Assembly: GCA_013140715.1 (NCBI GenBank)
Contig: JABFSG010000060.1
Span: 1-57,497, forward strand
Length of the DNA stretch: 57,497 nt
Direction: 5' to 3'
From: Nitrospiraceae bacterium
GTDB lineage: Bacteria > Nitrospirota > Nitrospiria > Nitrospirales > Nitrospiraceae
Both the position numbers and the translations under genes were made by a program. The notes below the pieces were generated by a model, which saw nothing but the letters and a program-made list of their open reading frames with translations, was not told the DNA's origin and did no database searches. Below are positions 29,185 to 54,583 of this stretch, piece after piece (within the stretch, counting starts at the first letter, position 1; every line of letters begins with the position of its first letter).

Positions 29185-29194
29185 TAGCTAGTTC

Positions 29195-29286
29195 TTCTTG
29201 TTTGTTTGGTCTGTTTCGTTGATTTGGTTCAAACAATGAGAGTAGCCATGCGCACCAAATGAACCAAACAAACCAGATGAACCTGC
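29195..29286. repeat. 9-nt-period palindromic repeat, copy 2
   Basis: The left arm reads TTTGTTTGG, TCTGTTTCG and TTGATTTGG in tandem. The right arm is the complementary ACCAAATGAACCAAACAAACC series. The loop contains AATGAGAGTAGCCATGCGCACC, close to that of copy 3. It lies between two convergent genes and could act as a bidirectional terminator. Confidence 0.7.
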
Positions 29287-30367: not shown

Positions 30368-30434
30368 CTAGGGATATTGCCGCCCGTTCCTAGGGAGATG
30401 CCTAGTGTGTTTCTCCTTCCACATGGATTATAGA
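30368..30434 (+). promoter_or_regulatory. Activator-type promoter of the porin gene, shared motif copy 1
   Basis: CTAGGGATATTGC (from 30368), then CCCGTT, then CCTAGGGAGATGCCTAGTGT (30389-30408), then 20 bases later a TATAGA -10 (30429-30434). The proximal part is an inverted repeat, CTAGG-N6-CCTAG. There is no good -35, as expected for an activated promoter whose regulator binds across the -35. The same arrangement with identical spacing lies upstream of urtA. Confidence 0.7.
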
Positions 30435-30473
30435 TTCCCACCATTGATCCGGTTGGACCGCGGTCGCTGGTTC

Positions 30474-30486
30474 CTTAGTACCTAAG
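30474..30486. promoter_or_regulatory. Small palindrome in the porin leader
   Basis: CTTAG-TAC-CTAAG is a perfect inverted repeat followed by a further TACCTA, so TACCTA occurs twice in 13 bases. It resembles the CTAGG half-sites of the upstream motif and may be another regulator site or part of an RNA hairpin. Confidence 0.35.
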
Positions 30487-30591
30487 TACCTATGAGAATT
30501 GGATGAAGAGGATGATGGGTTGAACTATTGGAGTACATGAAAGGAGGCATTGCAGATTTGTCTTTTCTTACTCACTGAGGAGGATGACACC

Positions 30592-31890
30592 ATGAAGGTA
30601 GATCAGAGTAGGCGGTGGAAAATGTTTGCGGTTGCCGGGGCTACCCTGGCGCTTGTGGCCGGGATGGTCTCTACGGTCCCCAATGTCTATGCCGGCGGCA
30701 CGATCAAGGCCAACGATGACCAGTGGATCTCCGTCGGAATGGGAATACGCACCAGTTTCAGTGCGAAAGAAGATGGGGCAGCGAGCGGTGCACAATGGAG
30801 TAACGATTTCGCCGTCGATAACGCTCGTATTTATATAAACGGGAAAATCCATAAGTACGTTGGGTTCGAGTTCAATACCGAATGTTTTAACTGTCCCCGT
30901 TCAGGGCAAGCTGCGGGTGGGCCGAATTCAAATACATTTGGGAGTAATTCCGGTGTCGGCCTGCTCGATGCGATCGGGAAGTTCGAGATCAATGAACTAG
31001 TGAACGTATGGTTCGGTCGCATGTTGGTGCCGGACTCTCGAGGCGAACTGAACGGTCCCTTCTACCATGCGGTCTACGATGGTTTTAGGACGCCGCTTAA
31101 CCCACATGACTTCAGTACGAATTTTGGCGCCGGCGGGTCTGGTATGTATGGCCGCGACAACGGCGTGACTTTTTTCGGGAAAGTCCATCCGGGCGGTACC
31201 CATCTGCAATATGTCGCGGGGGTGTTTACGGGAACAAGATCAGGTCTGAACAATGGACCTAATCAGCGAAACAGCCTGGTGTATGCTGGACGCCTGACGT
31301 GGAACCTGTTGAACGAGGAGAAGAATCCTGGCTACTACACCAGTGGTACCTACTACGGGACGCTTGGGGATATTCTCGCGATCGCTGCGGGAGGAGAATA
31401 TCAGAATGCCGCTGCTGGCTCATCGCAAAACCCACATGCATTCGGCAGCTTTGTGAGCGATCTATTGTTTGAGAAGGTCCTCCCGAATAACAATGGAGTA
31501 TTCACGTTCAACGCGGAATACAAACGGTACTGGGCAGGGAACCTCGCGTCCTTTACGACCACGGACACCAACAACATCCCTATATTTAGCGGGACTTCCT
31601 TCACTGCCTACGCTCTGTATCTGTTTCCAAATGAGGTCGGGATCGGGAGATTCCAGCCCTATGGGAGATATACCTTTGTGAATGGTGTGCATTCCACCGC
31701 ACTCGATGAATTTGAAGGAGGCCTGAACTACGTCATTAGTGGGCACAATGCACGCATTTCGACGTGGTGGCGGACCGGCAATCTTGCCCCCAATGGTGGG
31801 ATTGCGCAAAGTGGCTTTACGGGTGTCTTTAATGGCCCGAATAATCCGCATCAAGATTCTTTCCACGTAGCCTTGCAGTTGCAGTATTAA
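30592..31890 (+). CDS. fmdC: Outer-membrane porin, FmdC-like (short-chain amides and urea)
   Basis: A 432-residue protein with a clear signal peptide (AGATLALVAGMVSTVPNVYA, cut before GG) and a mature part of alternating beta strands ending in an aromatic-flanked QLQY terminus, as in outer-membrane barrels. The call as an FmdC-type porin rests on recognition of the family and on its place next to a urea transporter and urease, as reported for Nitrospira moscoviensis. I chose ATG 30592 for its perfect GAGGAGG at 30577-30583. An in-frame TTG at 30550 is unlikely. Confidence 0.8.
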   Translation: MKVDQSRRWKMFAVAGATLALVAGMVSTVPNVYAGGTIKANDDQWISVGMGIRTSFSAKEDGAASGAQWSNDFAVDNARIYINGKIHKYVGFEFNTECFNCPRSGQAAGGPNSNTFGSNSGVGLLDAIGKFEINELVNVWFGRMLVPDSRGELNGPFYHAVYDGFRTPLNPHDFSTNFGAGGSGMYGRDNGVTFFGKVHPGGTHLQYVAGVFTGTRSGLNNGPNQRNSLVYAGRLTWNLLNEEKNPGYYTSGTYYGTLGDILAIAAGGEYQNAAAGSSQNPHAFGSFVSDLLFEKVLPNNNGVFTFNAEYKRYWAGNLASFTTTDTNNIPIFSGTSFTAYALYLFPNEVGIGRFQPYGRYTFVNGVHSTALDEFEGGLNYVISGHNARISTWWRTGNLAPNGGIAQSGFTGVFNGPNNPHQDSFHVALQLQY

Positions 31891-31924
31891 GAAGGTCGGT
31901 TGAAATGGGCAAGCGCCCAGCCGG

Positions 31925-31961
31925 GAAAAGCCGAAATCCGTTCTGCGGGTTTCGGCTTTTC
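31925..31961 (+). terminator. Rho-independent terminator after the porin gene
   Basis: GAAAAGCCGAAATCCG (31925-31940) pairs with CGGGTTTCGGCTTTTC (31946-31961) around a TTCTG loop, with one G-U pair. The stem ends in TTTT, giving a standard A-tract/T-tract terminator that separates the porin mRNA from the two-component genes. Confidence 0.85.
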
Positions 31962-31987
31962 TCGCCCTTCCCCCCAGCAGATGACTA

Positions 31988-32063
31988 AGGGATAGAGGTT
32001 GAGGCTGAGGTTAAGGTCGAAATGAAGTAAGTCGGTCTTCGCTTAACCTCAACCCTACCCTAT
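31988..32063. repeat. 6-nt-period palindromic repeat, copy 1
   Basis: The left arm is GGTTGA, GGCTGA, GGTTAA and GGTCGA in tandem. The right arm (CTTAACCTCAACCCTACCC) is complementary. The loop has AATGAAG and GTCTTCG. A sister copy lies at 38769-38850. Confidence 0.65.
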
Positions 32064-32111
32064 ACTCCTCCGCTGATCCTCGTTTCACGGTTTCCGTATG
32101 GGGAATGCCCC

Positions 32112-32140
32112 TTGACAGGAGAGTAATAGACTCCGAATAT
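32112..32140 (+). promoter_or_regulatory. Candidate promoter of the two-component operon
   Basis: A perfect TTGACA at 32112-32117 is followed after 17 bases by GAATAT (32135-32140), a poor -10. An alternative TATAAG lies 3 bases further. It is 50 bases before the kinase start. Confidence 0.45.
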
Positions 32141-32191
32141 AAGCACCCAAATTGATGCGGCGCAGCAATCTGGCAAAGAGAATGAACCACC

Positions 32192-34420
32192 ATGTCTAAA
32201 GCCACGGCTCCCCGCCCCTACTCCTGGCTGTTGGTCCTCATCAGTGTGTTGCCGATCATCATGCTGACGATCGGCGCAATGGCTTTCCGCTACATCGAAA
32301 CCCGCATGATTGCGACAGCAGGCGAAACTCTGGCTCTGTCAGCCGCAGAAGTCTCGGACAAGGTGGACCGATTTCTCATTGAGCGGCATGGCGATGTGCT
32401 GATGATGGCAAGGACGTTCGGTGTGCAGGCGCATAATCGTGAATTTCAGTCGGCCTATGTCGCCGGGCTGATGACCGCATACCCGGACTACTTATGGGTC
32501 GGCGCCACGAACGAACTCGGACAGATTGTGGTTGCCACCGACCCAAGCACGCTGGGGCGAGACTACAGTGCTCAACCCTGGTTTCAGGCTGCGCGCAGCG
32601 GGCAGGGGGTCCATATGGGGGACGTGGAGCCCTTCGCAGTGATGGGCGGGCCAGACGCAATAGCCGTGACAGCTCCCATCACAGGACCACGAGGAGAATT
32701 TCTGGGGGTCGTGACGACCCGGGTGGGGATTCCCGGGCTAGAGAACCTCATGACAGGGACTCTTCGGTCGTTTCGGCAGCGGGAGGGATTTTGGGGAGCG
32801 CTGGAATATCAGTTCTTGAATGAGAAGGGAGTGGCCTTCATCGATTCGGATCTCGAGCATAAGGGCCACGTCAATCTCAAACGACTCGGCTTGCCTTCGG
32901 CATTGGCAAGCGAAGGGACCCTGTCGAATTATGTCGAGGAGGAGCATCTGCGTCGCCACGTGCCGGTCATCACCGGCTATGCCAGGACTTCGGTCCGTGG
33001 CGGGTTCGACGGCATACATTGGACGGTGTTGATGCGCATGGATCGGCGAGATGTGCTGGCGCCGATTCGAGAGGTGCTCTGGAACCTTGGCCTGGCGGGC
33101 GGCGCTCTGGTGATTCCAACGTTCGGACTGTTGGTGTGGACTGTGACCCGTGTGCGGAGGGAATATCGGCATGCGCAACAGGAACGGGCGATTGCCATGG
33201 AGGCCGAAGCATCGCTGCGCGAAAGCGAGGCTCGCACCAGGCGTATTGTGGAGATGGCGCTTGATGGCTTTATCGGGATGGACGCCGCCGGAGTCATTAC
33301 CGAATGGAACGTTCAAGCCGAACAGATGTTCGGCTGGTCGAGGCAAGAGGCCATCGGACGACTTCTTTCCACCACCATCATTCCGGTACAACACCGGGAA
33401 GCCCATGAGCGGGGATTGCGCCATTTCCTCGCAACCGGTGAAGGGCCGATCATGAACAGACGTATCGAAATCACAGGCATCCATCATGACGGGTACGAGA
33501 TTCCAATCGAACTGGCGATCTCGCCGGCCTTAGGGCAGGGGGGGGCCTATACCTTCAGTGCGTTCGTGCGGAATATCTCGAGGCGGAAGTTGGCCGAAGA
33601 GCAGAGCCGCCTGCATCAAGAGGAACTGCAACGGCTCAACGAGGCTTTGGATAAACGGGTGCAGATCAGAACCCAAGAACTGGCCGCGGTCAACGAATCG
33701 TTGGTGGCTGAAGTCTCGGAACGGATGGAGACCGAAGCGTCGCTCAAAAGCAGCCAGGAAGCACTGCAGAAATTGGCGCTTCAGCTGTTGCGCGTGCAGG
33801 AAGATGAACGCCGTCGTATCTCGCGCGATTTGCACGATGACATCAATCAACGGCTCGCGCTTCTGGCGATGGACATCGAAGCGGTAGAGCAGCGGCTCGG
33901 CTTCTTATCGGAAGACGTGGGTCAGGAGATCCGCGCGATACAGGACCGGGTTGTGGAATTGTCGGACGTGGTGCGTCATTTGGCCTATCAGCTTCATCCC
34001 TCCATTCTCGATGACCTCGGTCTTCCTATCGCCCTGCAGCGTTTGGTGGATGAGTTCACCGCTCGAAGCCGTATCCAAGGGAGTTTTGGACACAAGGATA
34101 TTCCTCCTACCATTCCCCAGGAGGTCGCGGCCTGTCTCTATCGCGTCGCCCAAGAGAGCCTCAGCAACGTGGCTCGCCATGCAGCGGCCTCCCGGGTCGA
34201 TGTGGAGCTGACTCGGTCTCGATCCGGGTTGACTGTCACGATTAGAGATAATGGAGTGGGATTCGACTCCGAGCAACCGGGGTATGGGCCGCATGGGCTG
34301 GGGTTGCTCGGAATGAAAGAACGAGTCGCGTTGGTTCAGGGAGACTTACAGGTGATGTCGGCTGTGGGGAAGGGAACGACTGTGCAGGTCGTGGTGGTCG
34401 TTCCGGAGGGAGTCTCGTGA
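32192..34420 (+). CDS. Membrane sensor histidine kinase (Cache-PAS-HisKA_3), urea locus
   Basis: A 742-residue kinase. TM1 is at about residues 10-32, a periplasmic double-Cache sensor at about 45-285, TM2 at about 305-325 and a PAS domain at about 350-460. A coiled coil, a HisKA_3 dimerisation domain with H548 in RRISRDLHDDINQRL, and a HATPase with DNGVGFD and GLGLLGMKERV follow. This is the NarX/DegS class that pairs with LuxR-type regulators. Cache domains usually bind small ligands such as amino acids, amides or urea-like molecules; the ligand here is unknown. It overlaps the regulator gene, which fixes the pair. Confidence 0.92.
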   Translation: MSKATAPRPYSWLLVLISVLPIIMLTIGAMAFRYIETRMIATAGETLALSAAEVSDKVDRFLIERHGDVLMMARTFGVQAHNREFQSAYVAGLMTAYPDYLWVGATNELGQIVVATDPSTLGRDYSAQPWFQAARSGQGVHMGDVEPFAVMGGPDAIAVTAPITGPRGEFLGVVTTRVGIPGLENLMTGTLRSFRQREGFWGALEYQFLNEKGVAFIDSDLEHKGHVNLKRLGLPSALASEGTLSNYVEEEHLRRHVPVITGYARTSVRGGFDGIHWTVLMRMDRRDVLAPIREVLWNLGLAGGALVIPTFGLLVWTVTRVRREYRHAQQERAIAMEAEASLRESEARTRRIVEMALDGFIGMDAAGVITEWNVQAEQMFGWSRQEAIGRLLSTTIIPVQHREAHERGLRHFLATGEGPIMNRRIEITGIHHDGYEIPIELAISPALGQGGAYTFSAFVRNISRRKLAEEQSRLHQEELQRLNEALDKRVQIRTQELAAVNESLVAEVSERMETEASLKSSQEALQKLALQLLRVQEDERRRISRDLHDDINQRLALLAMDIEAVEQRLGFLSEDVGQEIRAIQDRVVELSDVVRHLAYQLHPSILDDLGLPIALQRLVDEFTARSRIQGSFGHKDIPPTIPQEVAACLYRVAQESLSNVARHAAASRVDVELTRSRSGLTVTIRDNGVGFDSEQPGYGPHGLGLLGMKERVALVQGDLQVMSAVGKGTTVQVVVVVPEGVS

Positions 34421-35061
34421 GCAGGCCAAGGGTGCTCTTGGGCGATGACCATACTCTGGTGTTGGACGGATTCCGGAAACTGCTGGAAGATCAGTGCGAG
34501 ATCGTCGGTGCGGCGGAAGATGGCCGTACGCTGCTTAGAATGGCCCAGGAGCTTCAGCCGGACATCGTCACACTCGATATCTCGATGCCGCAGCTCAACG
34601 GGGTCGATGCAGCCAAGAAGCTGAAGAAGGTTCTGCCCCACACCAAATTGATTTTCGTCACCATGCATGCCGATCCGGCCTATGTGAATGAAGCCTTCAA
34701 GGCCGGCGCTTCCGGCTATCTGCTTAAACGGTCCGCCGGCTCAGAGTTACGTCAAGCCATCCAATCCGTTATGGAAGGACAGTGTTATGTCACTCCTCTG
34801 GTGGCGAAGGGGCTGGTGCAGTCCGTCATCACCGGGGAGAGACCTCCGGGTCTCAAAGACCAATCCTTAACTGCGCGCCAAAGAGAAGTATTGCAACTCG
34901 TAGCGGAGGGGATGACCGTCAAGGAGATTGCTTCGGCCCTCGATCTTTCACCGAAGACGGTCGAATTTCACAAGTCGCATATCATGATGCAGCTCGATCT
35001 CCACACGACGGCAGAGCTCACCAAGTACGCCCTAGTCCATGGGCTCCTCGCATCCGAGTAA
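34417..35061 (+). CDS. LuxR/NarL-family response regulator, urea locus
   Basis: A 214-residue regulator. The receiver domain has acidic residues DD at 10-11, phospho-acceptor D54 in VTLDISMPQLNG and K104 in GYLLKRS. The C-terminal LuxR helix-turn-helix has LTARQREVLQLVAEGMTVKE and DLSPKTVEFHKSHIM. The GTG start overlaps the kinase stop (GTGA). It lies between the porin and urt promoters, which carry the same palindromic motif, and is the best candidate to bind it. Confidence 0.93.
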   Translation: MSRPRVLLGDDHTLVLDGFRKLLEDQCEIVGAAEDGRTLLRMAQELQPDIVTLDISMPQLNGVDAAKKLKKVLPHTKLIFVTMHADPAYVNEAFKAGASGYLLKRSAGSELRQAIQSVMEGQCYVTPLVAKGLVQSVITGERPPGLKDQSLTARQREVLQLVAEGMTVKEIASALDLSPKTVEFHKSHIMMQLDLHTTAELTKYALVHGLLASE

Positions 35062-35099
35062 CGCCCCGCACATCGATATCTGCCAAAACCTGTTTGCCC

Positions 35100-35211
35100 C
35101 TCTTGTTTCTTTGGTCGATCTGGTTTATTTGGTTGATTTGATTCAAAAAAAGAGAGACGCCATACGCACCAAATAAACGAAATGAACCAAAGAAACCAAA
35201 TCAACCTGTCC
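35100..35211. repeat. 9-nt-period palindromic repeat, copy 3
   Basis: The left arm has TTTCTTTGG, TCGATCTGG, TTTATTTGG and TTGATTTGA in tandem. The right arm (CACCAAATAAACG to GAAACCAAATCAACC) is complementary. The loop AAAGAGAGACGCCATACGCACC is almost the same as in copy 2. It follows the response regulator and may terminate that operon. Confidence 0.7.
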
Positions 35212-35224
35212 CGTTGACATCCTG

Positions 35225-35291
35225 CTAGGGAGATTGCTTCCCGTTCCTAGGGAGATGCCTAGTGTCATTCTCGTTCTTCTCAGCTTATACA
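35225..35291 (+). promoter_or_regulatory. Activator-type promoter of urtABCDE, shared motif copy 2
   Basis: CTAGGGAGATTGC (from 35225), CCCGTT, CCTAGGGAGATGCCTAGTGT (35246-35265) and a TATACA -10 (35286-35291). The distances between the first CTAGGG, the CCTAGTGT element and the -10 are identical to those before the porin gene, and sequence similarity extends downstream (ATTCC-nn-CCA, then TC-n-GGT-n-GG). It gives a leader of about 430 bases before urtA. Confidence 0.7.
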
Positions 35292-35347: not shown

Positions 35348-35686
35348 ATGATGAAGAAGATACGGTTCCTTCTCCCAGACGGCTCTCCACTCGATGCTTC
35401 AAGGGATTACTCCGTTCGTTTCGGACGAACATCGGTTGTGGGGGCGGTCATGGATAGAAGGGGCTTTATGAAGGTGTCGGTTCATCGGAGTTGCGACCCG
35501 TCTGGAAAGTCCGAGAGGTTCTTTCTGCCTCCCGCACAATTTCCGTCTCTGTGTGAGGGACAACGATCCCTCGTGACGGGGGCCGATTATCCGCAGGGTG
35601 GACTGACCGCAGGGATTGAATGGTGGACAACGGGGTTCACCGGATCGGCCAGAATGCACGGGAAGGACAACGGCGTCTTTTTCTGA
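35348..35686 (+). CDS. Small ORF upstream of urtA, hypothetical or gene remnant
   Basis: A 112-codon frame with no family I recognise. Its last residues (GSARMHGKDNGVFF) resemble GSGMYGRDNGVTFF inside the porin at 30592-31890, so it may contain a scrap of a second porin copy lying behind the same promoter motif. No good ribosome binding site is visible. It has no signal peptide or membrane segment. It may be untranslated leader. Confidence 0.35.
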   Translation: MMKKIRFLLPDGSPLDASRDYSVRFGRTSVVGAVMDRRGFMKVSVHRSCDPSGKSERFFLPPAQFPSLCEGQRSLVTGADYPQGGLTAGIEWWTTGFTGSARMHGKDNGVFF

Positions 35687-35725: not shown

Positions 35726-37093
35726 ATGGAAAAGAAGAAACCTAATGAGGAAAGTTCGGTCGTAGCAGACAAAGTCGATGGGAGCGACGCTGGTCCATCC
35801 CGGCGTGAGCTTCTGGTGAAAGGAGGCAAGATAGTAGCCGGCATCGGGGTCGCCTCTTTGCTCGGCAACTTGGGCAATTGGGCCCTGTCCTATGCGGCAG
35901 ACAAAGAGCCGATCAAGATTGGAATCTTGCATTCGCTCAGCGGCACCATGGCCATCAGCGAAGTCTCGCTCCGCGATACGGTGATGATGGCGGTGGAGGA
36001 GATCAATGCGAAGGGCGGAGTGATGGGCCGGATGATCAAGCCGGTCGTCGTCGATCCAGCCTCGAACTGGGATCTCTTTGCGGAAAAAGCCAAGCAGCTT
36101 TTGTTGCAAGACAAGGTATCGGTGACCTTTGGCTGCTGGACTTCGGTCAGCCGCAAGTCGGTGTTGCCGGTCTTCGAGAAAAATAACGGCCTCCTGTTCT
36201 ATCCCGTGCAGTATGAAGGAGAAGAATGTTCGCGCAACGTCTTCTACACCGGCGCCGCTCCGAATCAGCAGGCTGTGCCGGCGGTGGATTATCTGATGAG
36301 CAAGGAGGGAGGCGGATTCACGAAGTTCTATCTGCTCGGGACCGATTACGTCTATCCCCGCACCACCAACAAGATTCTGCGAGCGATGCTCTTGGCAAAA
36401 AAAGTGCCGGCGGACAGCATCATGGAAGAATATACCCCGTTCCACCATCAGGACTATCAAACCATCTGCGGCAAACTGAAGAAGTTCGCCGCCGGTGGAG
36501 GGGCTGCCGTAATCAGCACGATCAACGGAGACAGCAACGTGCCCTTCTACAAAGAGTTTGCGAACCAAGGGTTGCGGGCCGAGGACGCTCCGATCATGGC
36601 CTTCAGCGTGGCGGAAGACGAGCTGCGCGGCATGGATACTTCGGCGTTGGTCGGGCACCTGGCGGCGTGGAACTATTATCAAAGCGTCGATACGCCGCAG
36701 AACAAGCAATTCGTGGCCAATTTCAAAGCCTATTGCAAAAAGAACAATCTACCTGACGGCGACAAGCGGGTCACGGACGATCCGATCGAAGCAGCCTACT
36801 TCGGCGTGTACATTTGGAAGCAGGCTGTCGAGAAGGCTGCTTCGACTGAAGTCGACAAGGTCCGAAAGGCGGTCTATGGCAGTAAATTCATGGCGCCAGG
36901 CGGTGAAATCATGATGGATGCCGCCAATCATCACACCTACAGACCGGTGCTCATCGGCGAAATCCTGGCGGATGGACAGTTCAAGGTCGTCTCCCGCTCG
37001 AAGGGACTGGTGAAGCCGGAACCCTGGAGCGAATATACGAATCCCGACAAGGGTTGCGACTGGGTCGGTCATCAAGGGACCTATCAAAAATAG
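35726..37093 (+). CDS. urtA: Urea ABC transporter substrate-binding protein UrtA, Tat-exported
   Basis: A 455-residue type I periplasmic binding protein. The N terminus has a twin-arginine motif (SRRELL, S25-R26-R27) before a hydrophobic stretch ending SYAA, so it is predicted to be exported folded by Tat. The mature part begins PIKIGILHSLSGTMAISE and has VTFGCWTSVSRKSVLPVFE and YPVQYEGEECSRNVFYTGAA, typical of UrtA/FmdD proteins. It binds urea for UrtBCDE. GAAAGGAG precedes the ATG. A hairpin follows before urtB. Confidence 0.94.
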   Translation: MEKKKPNEESSVVADKVDGSDAGPSRRELLVKGGKIVAGIGVASLLGNLGNWALSYAADKEPIKIGILHSLSGTMAISEVSLRDTVMMAVEEINAKGGVMGRMIKPVVVDPASNWDLFAEKAKQLLLQDKVSVTFGCWTSVSRKSVLPVFEKNNGLLFYPVQYEGEECSRNVFYTGAAPNQQAVPAVDYLMSKEGGGFTKFYLLGTDYVYPRTTNKILRAMLLAKKVPADSIMEEYTPFHHQDYQTICGKLKKFAAGGGAAVISTINGDSNVPFYKEFANQGLRAEDAPIMAFSVAEDELRGMDTSALVGHLAAWNYYQSVDTPQNKQFVANFKAYCKKNNLPDGDKRVTDDPIEAAYFGVYIWKQAVEKAASTEVDKVRKAVYGSKFMAPGGEIMMDAANHHTYRPVLIGEILADGQFKVVSRSKGLVKPEPWSEYTNPDKGCDWVGHQGTYQK

Positions 37094-37208: not shown

Positions 37209-38765
37209 ATGATGCCTTCTCTGGGTCGCATGGTTGCCATCCTCAGTATGGTGGGACTGATTCTGTTCTGTGGGCAGGATTGGGTGGCCGCAGCGGATCG
37301 GCCTGCTGACGCGCCTCCCCTGTCTCCTGTCGAGCTGGCGCTTACCCAGGTCGCCAGCGAGGACGAATCGGTTCGCGATACAGCCATTCGTACGTTGGTT
37401 GAACAGGGCGATGCCAGCCTGCTTCCGCAGTTAGAAGCGATCCGCGCCAATGCAGACCGCAGCATCCGGCAAGCCATCAAGCCGCTCATGGACTCTCTCA
37501 AGAATCGAGCGAATCTGAAGAGCCCCAGTACCGACGTGCGTCGATCGGCGGCGACGGATCTCGGGTCAGCCGGGAAAGCCTGGGCGATCCCATGGCTGGA
37601 GGCTGCCGCAGCGAACGAACCGAATAAGTGGGTACGCTACACGATGGAAGAATCTGCAGCGTTGCTCAAGCTTGCATTGGACGATCAGACGATCAAGGCC
37701 GCTGCAGCAGAGAAACTTGGCGAACTCTACAGCCAGAACGGGGTGCCGGCCATGAAGAAACTGGTTGCGATCGGCGAGAGCGCCGAGGCGACCGAACCGC
37801 AGAAGATCGTAGCGAAGGCTGCTGCCGAGGCTATTCACCGCATTGAAACCTGGGGCGATTGGTCGAACGCAATTGAAACGTTCTTTCGCGCCATGAGCCT
37901 CAGTTCAGTGCTGCTGATCATGTCGTTGGGATTGGCGATCGTCTTCGGTTTGATGGGCGTCATCAATATGGCCCATGGCGAGCTGATGATGGTCGGTGCC
38001 TATGCGACGTTCGTCACCCAAGAAATCTTCAAAGCCTATCTGCCTCCCTCCATGTTCGAGTCCTACTTTCTGACCGCGATGCCCGTGGCATTTCTGACCG
38101 CCGCCGCCTTCGGCCTGGCGCTTGAAGCTACCGTCATCCGGTTTCTATACGGCCGTCCGCTGGAGACCATGTTGGCGACCTGGGGTGTCAGCTTAGTCTT
38201 GATGCAAGCGGCGCGGGTCTATTTCGGCGACTTGACCGCCGTGATTGCGCCGACTTGGCTGAGCGGCGGCGCACAGGTCATGGTCGGGGTCTATCTCCCT
38301 TTCAACCGCATCTTCATTATCGGTCTGTCCATCATCTGCGTCCTGGCTATCTATCTCTTACTGTTTCGTTCGAGCTTAGGCCTGCGTGTGCGGGCGGTGA
38401 TGCAGAATCGCAATATGAGTTCATGCCTGGGCATTCCCACGAGAAAAGTTGATGCCTATACCTTTGCATTCGGATCCGGTCTCGCCGGCGTTGCCGGATG
38501 GGCCCTCACGCTGGTCGGCAATGTGGATCCCGGTCTTGGACAGAACTATATCGTTGACGCCTTCATGGTGGTGGTGACCGGTGGGGTTGGAAAACTGGCC
38601 GGCACGATCGTGGCCTCGCTGGGGATCGGCGGGCTGAACAAACTGATCGAACCGAGCTTTGGCGCCGTCTACGGTAAGGTTTTCATTCTTGTGCTGGTGA
38701 TTCTGTTCCTGCAGTGGCGGCCGTCTGGACTGTTTGCGATGAAGGGGCGGAATGCCGATTCTTAA
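37209..38765 (+). CDS. urtB: Urea ABC transporter permease UrtB
   Basis: A 518-residue LivH-type permease. It starts with a signal peptide (MVAILSMVGLILFCG to AAAD). A soluble alpha-helical periplasmic region with HEAT-like repeats (about residues 30-215) is followed by the membrane domain (about 225-515) with GLAIVFGLMGVINMAHGELMM and GVGKLAGTIVASLGIGGLNK. The long N-terminal part is known in UrtB-type proteins and absent from plain LivH. It forms the channel with UrtC. Confidence 0.92.
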   Translation: MMPSLGRMVAILSMVGLILFCGQDWVAAADRPADAPPLSPVELALTQVASEDESVRDTAIRTLVEQGDASLLPQLEAIRANADRSIRQAIKPLMDSLKNRANLKSPSTDVRRSAATDLGSAGKAWAIPWLEAAAANEPNKWVRYTMEESAALLKLALDDQTIKAAAAEKLGELYSQNGVPAMKKLVAIGESAEATEPQKIVAKAAAEAIHRIETWGDWSNAIETFFRAMSLSSVLLIMSLGLAIVFGLMGVINMAHGELMMVGAYATFVTQEIFKAYLPPSMFESYFLTAMPVAFLTAAAFGLALEATVIRFLYGRPLETMLATWGVSLVLMQAARVYFGDLTAVIAPTWLSGGAQVMVGVYLPFNRIFIIGLSIICVLAIYLLLFRSSLGLRVRAVMQNRNMSSCLGIPTRKVDAYTFAFGSGLAGVAGWALTLVGNVDPGLGQNYIVDAFMVVVTGGVGKLAGTIVASLGIGGLNKLIEPSFGAVYGKVFILVLVILFLQWRPSGLFAMKGRNADS

Positions 38766-38897: not shown

Positions 38898-40031
38898 ATG
38901 ATGGCATCGAAAGAATCGGAGTCGCTGGCTCCAGGCGGTGGAGGCCTGGCCTTCTGGGTCGTCGGCTTCATTCTGCTCATAGCCATGCCGCTTTTGAACG
39001 TCTTGCCGCCGGAAGATTCCTGGCTGCATCTCTCCGATTTCAGCCTCAATCGATTCGGAAAATTTCTCGCCTTCGCGATTCTGGCCCTGGGCCTCGATCT
39101 TATTTGGGGCTACACCGGGATCTTGAGTTTGGGGCAGGGAGTCTTTTTCGGATTGGGCGCCTATTGCATGGGCATGCACATGATGCTCACGATCGGAAAA
39201 GAGAGCGTCTATGGGAGCGATCTGCCGGACTTCATGGTCTGGAACCAGGTGAAAGAGCTGCCGTTTTTCTGGAAACCCTTCTACAGTTTTCCTGCTGCGG
39301 TCATTGGCGCGATCCTGGTGCCGATGTTGTTTGCATTGGTATTCGGGTTTTTCGCCTTCCGCAGCCGCATCAAGGGTGTGTACTTCGCCATCATTACACA
39401 GGCGCTGGCGCTTGCTGCCTGGCTGGTCTTTAACCGGAACGACACCAATCTCGGCGGCACGAATGGATTGACCGATTTCAAACAGTTGATCGGGTATCGG
39501 CTCTCCGATCCCGGCACGCAACGGGTATTGTATATCGTCACAGTGCTCTGTCTGGGCGGGGCCTATCTCTTGTGCCGCTGGATCATTCGTTCGCGGGCCG
39601 GACGGGTATTGGTCGCTGTGCGGGACAGCGAGCAGCGTGTTACGTTTTCGGGGTACACTCCGGCCAACTATAAACTGTTTGTCTTTGTCGTGGCTGCGGC
39701 TCTGGCCGGATTGGCCGGGATGCTCTATGCGCCTCAGGTCGGCATCATCACGCCGGCGCAGATCGGGGTGCTGCCGTCGCTTGAAATGGTCATTTGGGTG
39801 GCGGTGGGAGGCCGTGCCAGTCTGGCAGGGGCTGTATTAGGGGCTGTGAGTGTGAATTACGGGCGCAGTATCCTCACGAACTATTTCCCCGAACTCTGGC
39901 CCTTCATTCTCGGCGGGCTCTTCGTTGTCGTCGTGCTGCTGTTTCCAGATGGGCTCATTGGCATCATGCGTAAGATGAAAGAGCGGATGAGGATGGGTAA
40001 AGCAGCGGCGGCTTCGGAAGGGAAGCGTTAA
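38898..40031 (+). CDS. urtC: Urea ABC transporter permease UrtC
   Basis: A 377-residue LivM-type permease with about ten membrane segments, LGLDLIWGYTGILSLGQGVFFGLGAYCMG near the N terminus, LGGTNGLTDF, and the cytoplasmic loop VRDSEQRVTFSGYTPANYKL that contacts the ATPases. It is the second channel subunit. urtD starts one base after its stop. Confidence 0.94.
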   Translation: MMASKESESLAPGGGGLAFWVVGFILLIAMPLLNVLPPEDSWLHLSDFSLNRFGKFLAFAILALGLDLIWGYTGILSLGQGVFFGLGAYCMGMHMMLTIGKESVYGSDLPDFMVWNQVKELPFFWKPFYSFPAAVIGAILVPMLFALVFGFFAFRSRIKGVYFAIITQALALAAWLVFNRNDTNLGGTNGLTDFKQLIGYRLSDPGTQRVLYIVTVLCLGGAYLLCRWIIRSRAGRVLVAVRDSEQRVTFSGYTPANYKLFVFVVAAALAGLAGMLYAPQVGIITPAQIGVLPSLEMVIWVAVGGRASLAGAVLGAVSVNYGRSILTNYFPELWPFILGGLFVVVVLLFPDGLIGIMRKMKERMRMGKAAAASEGKR

Positions 40032-40032
40032 G

Positions 40033-40809
40033 ATGACCGAGCAAAAGTCCTTCCAAAACTCCATCATCTATCTCGATGCCGTGACGGTCGATTATGACGG
40101 GTTCAAAGCGTTGAACCAACTGACCTTCATGGTCAACTATAAGGAATTGCGCGTCGTCATCGGGCCGAATGGAGCGGGAAAGACAACGCTGCTGGATGTG
40201 ATCTGCGGGAAGACGAAACCGGCGGCAGGCCGTGTCGTTTTCGGCCAGGACAAGGAACTGATCGGGAAACAGGCGGATGAAATCGTGAAGCTCGGCATCG
40301 GGCGAAAATTCCAAGCCCCCTCCATCTATGGCAATCTGACCGTGTGGGAAAATCTCGATCTGTCGTTGAAACGGAACAGCAAAGGGGTCTTCCCTACGTT
40401 GTTGGGAAAATCGACGGCGGAAGAACGGGAACGCATCGCGCAGAACCTCGAAACGATCAACCTGAAAGACTATGCCCATACCAGAGCCGGGTCGTTGTCG
40501 CATGGGCAGAAGCAATGGCTCGAAATCGGCATGGTGATCCTGCTGGAGCCCTCGTTGCTGCTGGTCGACGAACCGGTTGCAGGGATGACCGATAAAGAAA
40601 CGGAACAGACCGGTCGGTTGCTTCAATCATTGGCGGAGCAACGAGCGATCGTCGTCATCGAGCACGATATGGATTTTGTCCGTCAGATTGCCCGCACCGT
40701 CACTGTGCTTCACGAAGGCACGGTCATCTGCGAAGGCACCGTCGAAAAGGTGCAGGCCGACGACAGGGTAAGGGAAATCTATCTTGGGCGCCAAAAAGTG
40801 GCGCATTAG
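40033..40809 (+). CDS. urtD: Urea ABC transporter ATP-binding protein UrtD
   Basis: A 258-residue LivG-type ATPase with Walker A GPNGAGKTTLLD, the signature LSHGQKQWLEIGMV, Walker B LLLVDEPVAGMTD and IEHDMDFV. The signature starts LSHG, as in UrtD, rather than LSGG. It works as a heterodimer with UrtE. A palindromic repeat separates it from urtE. Confidence 0.94.
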   Translation: MTEQKSFQNSIIYLDAVTVDYDGFKALNQLTFMVNYKELRVVIGPNGAGKTTLLDVICGKTKPAAGRVVFGQDKELIGKQADEIVKLGIGRKFQAPSIYGNLTVWENLDLSLKRNSKGVFPTLLGKSTAEERERIAQNLETINLKDYAHTRAGSLSHGQKQWLEIGMVILLEPSLLLVDEPVAGMTDKETEQTGRLLQSLAEQRAIVVIEHDMDFVRQIARTVTVLHEGTVICEGTVEKVQADDRVREIYLGRQKVAH

Positions 40810-40955: not shown

Positions 40956-41666
40956 ATGCTTGAGCTGAAGAACGTCAATGCCTACTATGGGGAAAGTCAC
41001 ATTCTTCGGAACGTGACGTTCACGGTCGAGCCGGGCGAAGTTGCCTGTTTGATGGGTCGCAATGGTGTGGGCAAGACCACGACATTGAAGGCCATTACCG
41101 GGCTGCTGCCGGTGCGGTCAGGCCAGATATCCTTCGCCGGCAAGGATATGACAACGTTGCCGACCGATCGTCGGGCTCGGCAGGGTTTAGCCTATGTTCC
41201 ACAAGGGCGTGAGATCATTCCCCATTTGACCGTGCGACAAAATCTGCAGCTCGGCTTTTGGGCGAGGTCGGACAGGCCGAATGGTTCGGTGGAGAAGACT
41301 GCGTTCGACGAAGTCTATCAGCTCTTTCCCAAGCTCACGCAAATTCTCAATCGTCCGGGCGGGGTGTTGAGCGGGGGAGAGCAGCAGCAATTGGCGATCG
41401 GCCGTGCGATCCTGTCAAATCCCAAACTACTCTTGCTCGATGAGCCGACGGAAGGGATTCAGCCTTCGATCGTGGACCAGATCGAAGATGTGATTATCGG
41501 ATTCAAACAGCAACGCCGGTTTGCGATTTTGCTGGTCGAGCAAGGACTCCACTTTGCCGCCCGCCTGGCGGAAAAGTATGTGGTGATGGCCAAAGGGGCG
41601 GTGGTGGCGGCGGGCAAGAGCGATGAGTTGAGCGCGGATATGGTGAAGCAGCATTTGACGGTGTAG
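40956..41666 (+). CDS. urtE: Urea ABC transporter ATP-binding protein UrtE
   Basis: A 236-residue LivF-type ATPase with Walker A GRNGVGKTTTLKA, signature LSGGEQQQLAIGRAI, Walker B LLLLDEPTEGIQP and LVEQGLHFA. It is the last transporter gene. Its 3' terminal 75 bases and stop codon are duplicated at 42093-42169, beyond the next small gene. Confidence 0.94.
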   Translation: MLELKNVNAYYGESHILRNVTFTVEPGEVACLMGRNGVGKTTTLKAITGLLPVRSGQISFAGKDMTTLPTDRRARQGLAYVPQGREIIPHLTVRQNLQLGFWARSDRPNGSVEKTAFDEVYQLFPKLTQILNRPGGVLSGGEQQQLAIGRAILSNPKLLLLDEPTEGIQPSIVDQIEDVIIGFKQQRRFAILLVEQGLHFAARLAEKYVVMAKGAVVAAGKSDELSADMVKQHLTV

Positions 41667-54475: not shown

Positions 54476-54499
54476 CCGGCGCGACGCCGATTGGTACCT

Positions 54500-54583
54500 C
54501 TTGTTTATTTGGTTTGTTTGGTTTATCTGGTTGAGTGAGACAAACCAAGTGAACAAAACAAACTAGATCAACCAGACAAACCA
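54500..54583. repeat. 9-nt-period palindromic repeat, copy 5
   Basis: TTTATTTGG, TTTGTTTGG and TTTATCTGG in tandem, then a TTGAGTGAG loop and the complementary ACAAACCAAGTGAAC to CAGACAAACCAGG arm. It fills the gap between ureD and nadE and ends three bases before the nadE ATG. Confidence 0.75.

Follow-up and report, generated by a model that had tools for sequence, protein, structure and literature searches.

The two promoters of a comammox Nitrospira urea-uptake locus, one preceding an outer-membrane porin gene and the other preceding urtABCDE, carry the same regulatory box. Judging from sequence comparison, we put at about 0.8 the probability that both boxes are sites of the NarL/FixJ-type response regulator encoded at 34417-35061, which would activate the porin and Urt genes in the class II manner, from a palindrome centred at about -43.5 that replaces the -35 element, with input from a dCache-PAS kinase. 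Coordinates refer to the window, that is, the whole 57,497-nt stretch of DNA analysed. The kinase (32192-34420) would sense a signal from the periplasm or the membrane, perhaps urea, a related amide, or nitrogen supply, upon which a dimer of the phosphorylated regulator would occupy the 7-2-7 palindrome in place of the -35 element and a second dimer would sit 22 bp upstream, on the same face of the helix. Both dimers would then bring RNA polymerase to the conserved -10, activation rather than repression being the predicted outcome of the predicted binding, so that the porin and the UrtABCDE importer are switched on, possibly with read-through into ureABC.

The genome encodes amoA, and in this locus it is closest to Nitrospira sp. 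CG24E (95% for the regulator); therefore, the host is a comammox Nitrospira. The relatives nearest to the genome belong to the CG24 series of comammox Nitrospira. In the tree described below, the urea-type group includes the Rifle clade B genome (RCB), which makes clade B likely. Comammox bacteria oxidize ammonia all the way to nitrate and can use urea as an ammonia source for energy. The outer-membrane porin (fmdC) and UrtABCDE have been described as comammox urea-uptake genes (PMC11064514, PMC6311188), and the literature that we found, with many subscription papers outside its scope, contains no regulator or promoter element for comammox urea uptake. With the cis-element defined, a regulator named, and start sites precisely predicted, urea induction becomes open to direct testing in comammox Nitrospira.

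Genes of the urea-uptake locus

All genes of the locus lie on the + strand. The porin (30592-31890), called FmdC-like in the first-pass annotation, gave a weak NCBIfam match to the ExtI porin, below cut-off. The NarL-type two-component pair that the same annotation placed between the two promoters is indeed there, with a sensor histidine kinase at 32192-34420 (weak dCache, PAS, HisKA_3, and HATPase_c) and, at 34417-35061, a response regulator that combines a receiver with a GerE/LuxR HTH domain, both above cut-off (PF00072, 95.9 bits; PF00196, 71.1 bits). The two genes overlap, and a cognate HisKA_3 kinase is encoded in the same operon as the regulator. By score, the regulator is not an orthologue of NarL proper (125 bits, the equivalog cut-off being 250). 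The best NCBIfam resemblance of the pair is to MctSR and UhpBA, with all matches below cut-off (MctR, 183.6 bits of the 300 demanded for membership; MctS, 146.6 of 700; UhpB, 129.2; UhpA, 113.8). Both MctSR and UhpBA consist of a HisKA_3 kinase and a LuxR-type regulator that controls a transporter gene, but they differ from the window pair in the transported compound and the binding site. The sensor domain of the kinase had no match by sequence in the PDB.

The second box is followed by a 112-aa ORF (ORF112, 35348-35686), which occupies the place of the porin in relatives, and then by urtA, encoding the urea ABC transporter binding protein (35726-37093; TIGR03407, above cut-off), urtB (37209-38765), urtC (38898-40031), urtD (40033-40809), and urtE (40956-41666). 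All five subunits score above the curated cut-offs (TIGR03407-TIGR03411), and urease alpha is encoded downstream, among urease genes. ORF112 is 92% conserved in CG24E and has a porin-like tail of only 15 residues; we rejected its interpretation as a decayed porin, the resemblance being confined to these residues (E = 0.017).

Two copies of one promoter box

The porin promoter contains, on the + strand, an upstream half-site CTAGGGATATTGC (30368-30380), 22 bp from it the repeat that opens the core 7-2-7 palindrome CTAGGGA-GA-TGCCTAG (CTAGGGAGATGCCTAG, 30390-30405), and the -10 TATAGA (30429-30434), with the start predicted at ~30441. The urt promoter contains, on the same strand, the half-site CTAGGGAGATTGC (35225-35237), the core CTAGGGAGATGCCTAG (35247-35262), and the -10 TATACA (35286-35291), with the start predicted at ~35298. 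The first-pass annotation claimed the same layout from 30368 and from 35225, and on re-reading, its letters, coordinates, and distances all proved exact: CTAGGG and CCTAGTGT are 33 bp apart at both sites (30368 to 30401 and 35225 to 35258), and the -10 follows exactly 20 bases after CCTAGTGT (TATAGA at 30429, TATACA at 35286). The two sites share 57 of 70 aligned bases and match each other with E = 1.7e-15 in a BLASTN search within the window. The surroundings differ, also as claimed, with 14/60 identities in the 60-bp flank on each side, which is near random, as against 38/42 in the 42-bp box.

The inverted repeat CTAGG-N6-CCTAG that had been pointed out is mismatch-free at these two sites only in the 57,497-nt window. 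By pattern and model searches, on which all genome-wide statements here are based, the 28-base pattern CTAGGGNNATTGCNNCCCGTTCCTAGGG with up to 3 mismatches was found at two sites only in the 3.58-Mb genome, with 0 control matches; the motif is not scattered randomly through the genome, and random scatter is what the annotation would have counted against its proposal. Beyond the palindrome, each box contains two direct CTAGGGA repeats, 22 bp or two helical turns apart. Shortly before the urt box lies an intergenic repeat (35121-35206) with a counterpart between genes of CG24E, and the same CG24E stretch matches the window at 29188-29275 and 54488-54534.

Promoter geometry

In the 16-bp core, 2 bases separate two half-sites of 7 bases each, the second of which reads CTAGGCA when reversed; 7-2-7 inverted half-sites are the arrangement bound by the NarL dimer (PMC4549865, PMC9314961). 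The hexamers at 17-bp spacing from the -10 elements, TGTGTT and TGTCAT, each match TTGACA at 1/6 positions (by eye), in agreement with the missing -35 noted at the outset, and a consensus promoter scan detected no sigma-70 promoter at either site. Because neither window site has a usable -35, the promoters look activator-dependent. Counting the -10 as -12 to -7 puts the midpoint of the core at ~-43.5 relative to the predicted start, so that the 7-2-7 inverted repeat lies near -40 to -45 of a promoter without a -35, the class II layout. Activating NarL sites are located at -44.5 in ogt1052 and at -38 to -47 in yeaR, and in both ogt and yeaR NarL activates alone (PMC4549865, PMC9314961). By this analogy, a box at ~-43.5 that replaces the -35 has the geometry typical of direct activation by a NarL-type regulator.

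The likeness to these E. coli promoters extends to the family of the regulator (NarL/FixJ), the 7-2-7 half-sites, and the position near -40 to -45, from which the E. coli site activates alone. The half-site is different, CTAGGGA/CTAGGCA as opposed to TACCCCT in an engineered narG site (PMC4549865), and unlike yeaR and ogt, the promoters in the window have a second half-site 22 bp upstream and a kinase that is not NarX or NarQ.

The regulator could also bind the boxes and repress, for example, turning off the porin and Urt under plentiful ammonium: a protein bound at the predicted site, which borders on the -35 position, could also block the polymerase, and NarL itself is a repressor at some promoters (PMC4549865). 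We consider this reading unlikely given that the centre at ~-43.5 matches activating NarL positions, such as -44.5 in ogt1052 (PMC9314961), that promoters without a usable -35 look dependent on an activator, and that the corresponding promoter of relatives without the regulator has a good -35 instead (see below).

Box and regulator across Nitrospira

Among 32 genomes of the genus, 19 contain the 21-mer CCTAGGGAGATGCCTAGTGTG with up to 3 mismatches (control matches, 0), and 20 encode an orthologue of the regulator (83-100% identity; next best ~63%), with a 91% fragment at a contig end in one more (G013), which we counted as regulator-positive. Nitrospira genomes had been suggested for a co-occurrence scan in the first-pass annotation; in these genomes, the regulator is present in 19/19 genomes with the box, and 0/11 regulator-less genomes match the pattern (Fisher 6e-7, a descriptive value since kinship among the loci inflates it). 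Part of this co-occurrence reflects co-inheritance, as box and regulator gene are within ~50-230 bp of each other. One of the 19, G011, is included through an unlinked match (G011:C231) that we rejected as chance-like, there being no upstream half-site or -10; this genome has kept the regulator, with the adjacent box absent, the kinase broken, and urtA missing. Of the regulator-less genomes, G022 alone has a strong match to the urea-site profile, and this match is at a contig edge, in an efflux-type locus where the regulator would be off the contig, and the G028 box has 4 mismatches to the 21-mer. In G006:C7 (L116:7478-7624), the box is truncated by a deletion or an assembly join and runs directly into the 3' end of the porin gene.

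The 17 urea-linked promoters align without gaps, and 28 of the 71 columns are invariant, including most of the -10, the TATA columns being among the most conserved; the flanks carry low information. With one mismatch allowed, CTAGG-N6-CCTAG follows the regulator gene within 300 bp in 15/17 loci with at least 83% identity (control windows, 0/404) and in 17/23 loci where the regulator is at 64-69%, mostly in other genera and including N. defluvii (control windows, 1/495). Three family-level matches in genus g14, each with 3 mismatches, were dismissed as chance level, with six control matches in 175 genomes. In Acidobacteria (Bryobacterales-type; L255, L256), the genes for relatives with 58-59% identity to the regulator are closely followed by a CTGGG-N6-CCCAG-like palindrome.

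Loci with other sensors and target operons

Four genomes (G020, G026, G027, and G028) encode the same regulator (84-88%), with the box right after the gene, where a profile built from urea sites only recovers it. Their kinases align to the window kinase at the C-terminus only, and that of G028 has no Pfam matches other than HisKA_3 and HATPase. After some small and receiver-domain genes, these loci continue with genes for outer-membrane, adaptor, and RND efflux components, with no urea genes (by eye), and those of the loci with 64-69% regulators that were read also lead into efflux-type genes (by eye). Because the box precedes efflux-type genes in these related loci, it is tied to the regulator subfamily and not specifically to urea. 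G029 and G030, which count as one case because their upstream sequences are identical, have porin-urt without the kinase-regulator pair, and the upstream region has no box but does have TTGACA-N17-TATGGT (by eye). A 60-63% paralogue of the regulator is followed in several genomes by the same layout in changed letters, for example, CTAGTGGGATTG..CTAGGGACCTCCCTAG (by eye), and in G010, TATAAT follows at a distance of 28 bases, counted from where the closing CCTAG begins (by eye). This variant of the box precedes a gene for a receiver-domain protein (L174, L177, L178, L180-L183).

These comparisons clearly show a regulator and box staying together across lineages that differ in both the sensor and the target operon. 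They also bear on the possibility that another genus-wide factor binds the box, whose adjacency to the regulator would then be an inherited neighbourhood only. As this would predict, few sites are unlinked, the majority being physical neighbours of the regulator gene; however, the box remains beside the regulator despite a different sensor domain and downstream operon, it is also found beside the 64-69% relatives, mostly in other genera, with a variant beside the paralogue, and the sole regulator-less type of urea operon with a readable upstream region has none. We accordingly regard another factor as very unlikely and retain the regulator at 34417-35061 as the candidate.

In a tree of the kinase core and regulator, all urea-type loci fall on one side of a branch (100/97), beside a graded series of efflux-type loci, which would imply a single move to the urea locus if the root, which is not independently placed, is among the efflux-type loci. 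We give even odds to a single transfer of the regulator, its downstream box, and the kinase core, as a complete module, out of an RND efflux operon, an arrangement still present in other Nitrospira genera, to the front of porin-urt in the lineage that contains the comammox bacteria, with acquisition of a new dCache-PAS sensor. If so, urea, an energy substrate, would be under substrate-type rather than general nitrogen control. In other bacteria, urt is controlled by NtcA or NtrC, which respond to cellular nitrogen status; here, by contrast, a dedicated membrane kinase-regulator pair is encoded within the locus.

Origin of the two boxes

The usual gene order in relatives is a divergent lipoprotein-like gene, kinase, regulator, a single box, porin, urtABCDE, and ureABC. 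The window genome and CG24E differ: the box and porin precede the kinase or are on another contig, and box, ORF112, and urtA follow the regulator. The two boxes represent a lineage-specific split, in the window genome and its sister CG24E, of a one-box porin-urtABCDE unit. The two promoters probably descend from one, so that their likeness reflects shared origin together with conservation while the flanks drifted. In CG24E (L128:7088-10113, G003:C1), the porin copy is parted from urt by two transposase-like genes, others, and a scaffold gap.

That the box is merely a structural or mobile element (terminator, repeat family, or transposon end) copied by porin duplication seems most improbable: the core at 30390-30405 does score as a terminator-like hairpin and the two copies probably come from duplication, most relatives having one, but the genome has two copies only, with no Rfam match, the box is conserved at 38/42 against drifted flanks at 14/60 with fixed spacing to the -10, and no + strand gene ends just before the first site to be terminated. 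The urea/amide regulon proposed in the first-pass annotation is strengthened by the comparative box-regulator linkage and the activator-type geometry; what falls away is the independence of the two boxes and urea as the defining link of the box.

Unlinked sites

Good sites unlinked to the regulator are few and suggest a slightly wider regulon. Profile matches are located near c-type cytochrome-like genes (G016:C299 and C305) and before an unnamed membrane protein (G009:C35), and the window genome itself has a partial box (G000:C27:7859-7905, L008; E = 4.8e-5) upstream of a second NarL-type regulator. The protein after the G009:C35 box, P0001, is present in 2/32 genomes and was rejected as a UctT urea transporter, having no Pfam or PDB match and an NCBIfam value of only 0.093; its G004 orthologue has CTAGG-N6-CCTAG at a different place, without a placed -10. 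A weak partial box (G018:C51:2022-2054, L175; E = 0.03) likewise lies upstream of this second regulator. The window genome has the second regulator in tandem, as two near-identical copies around the C27 partial box.
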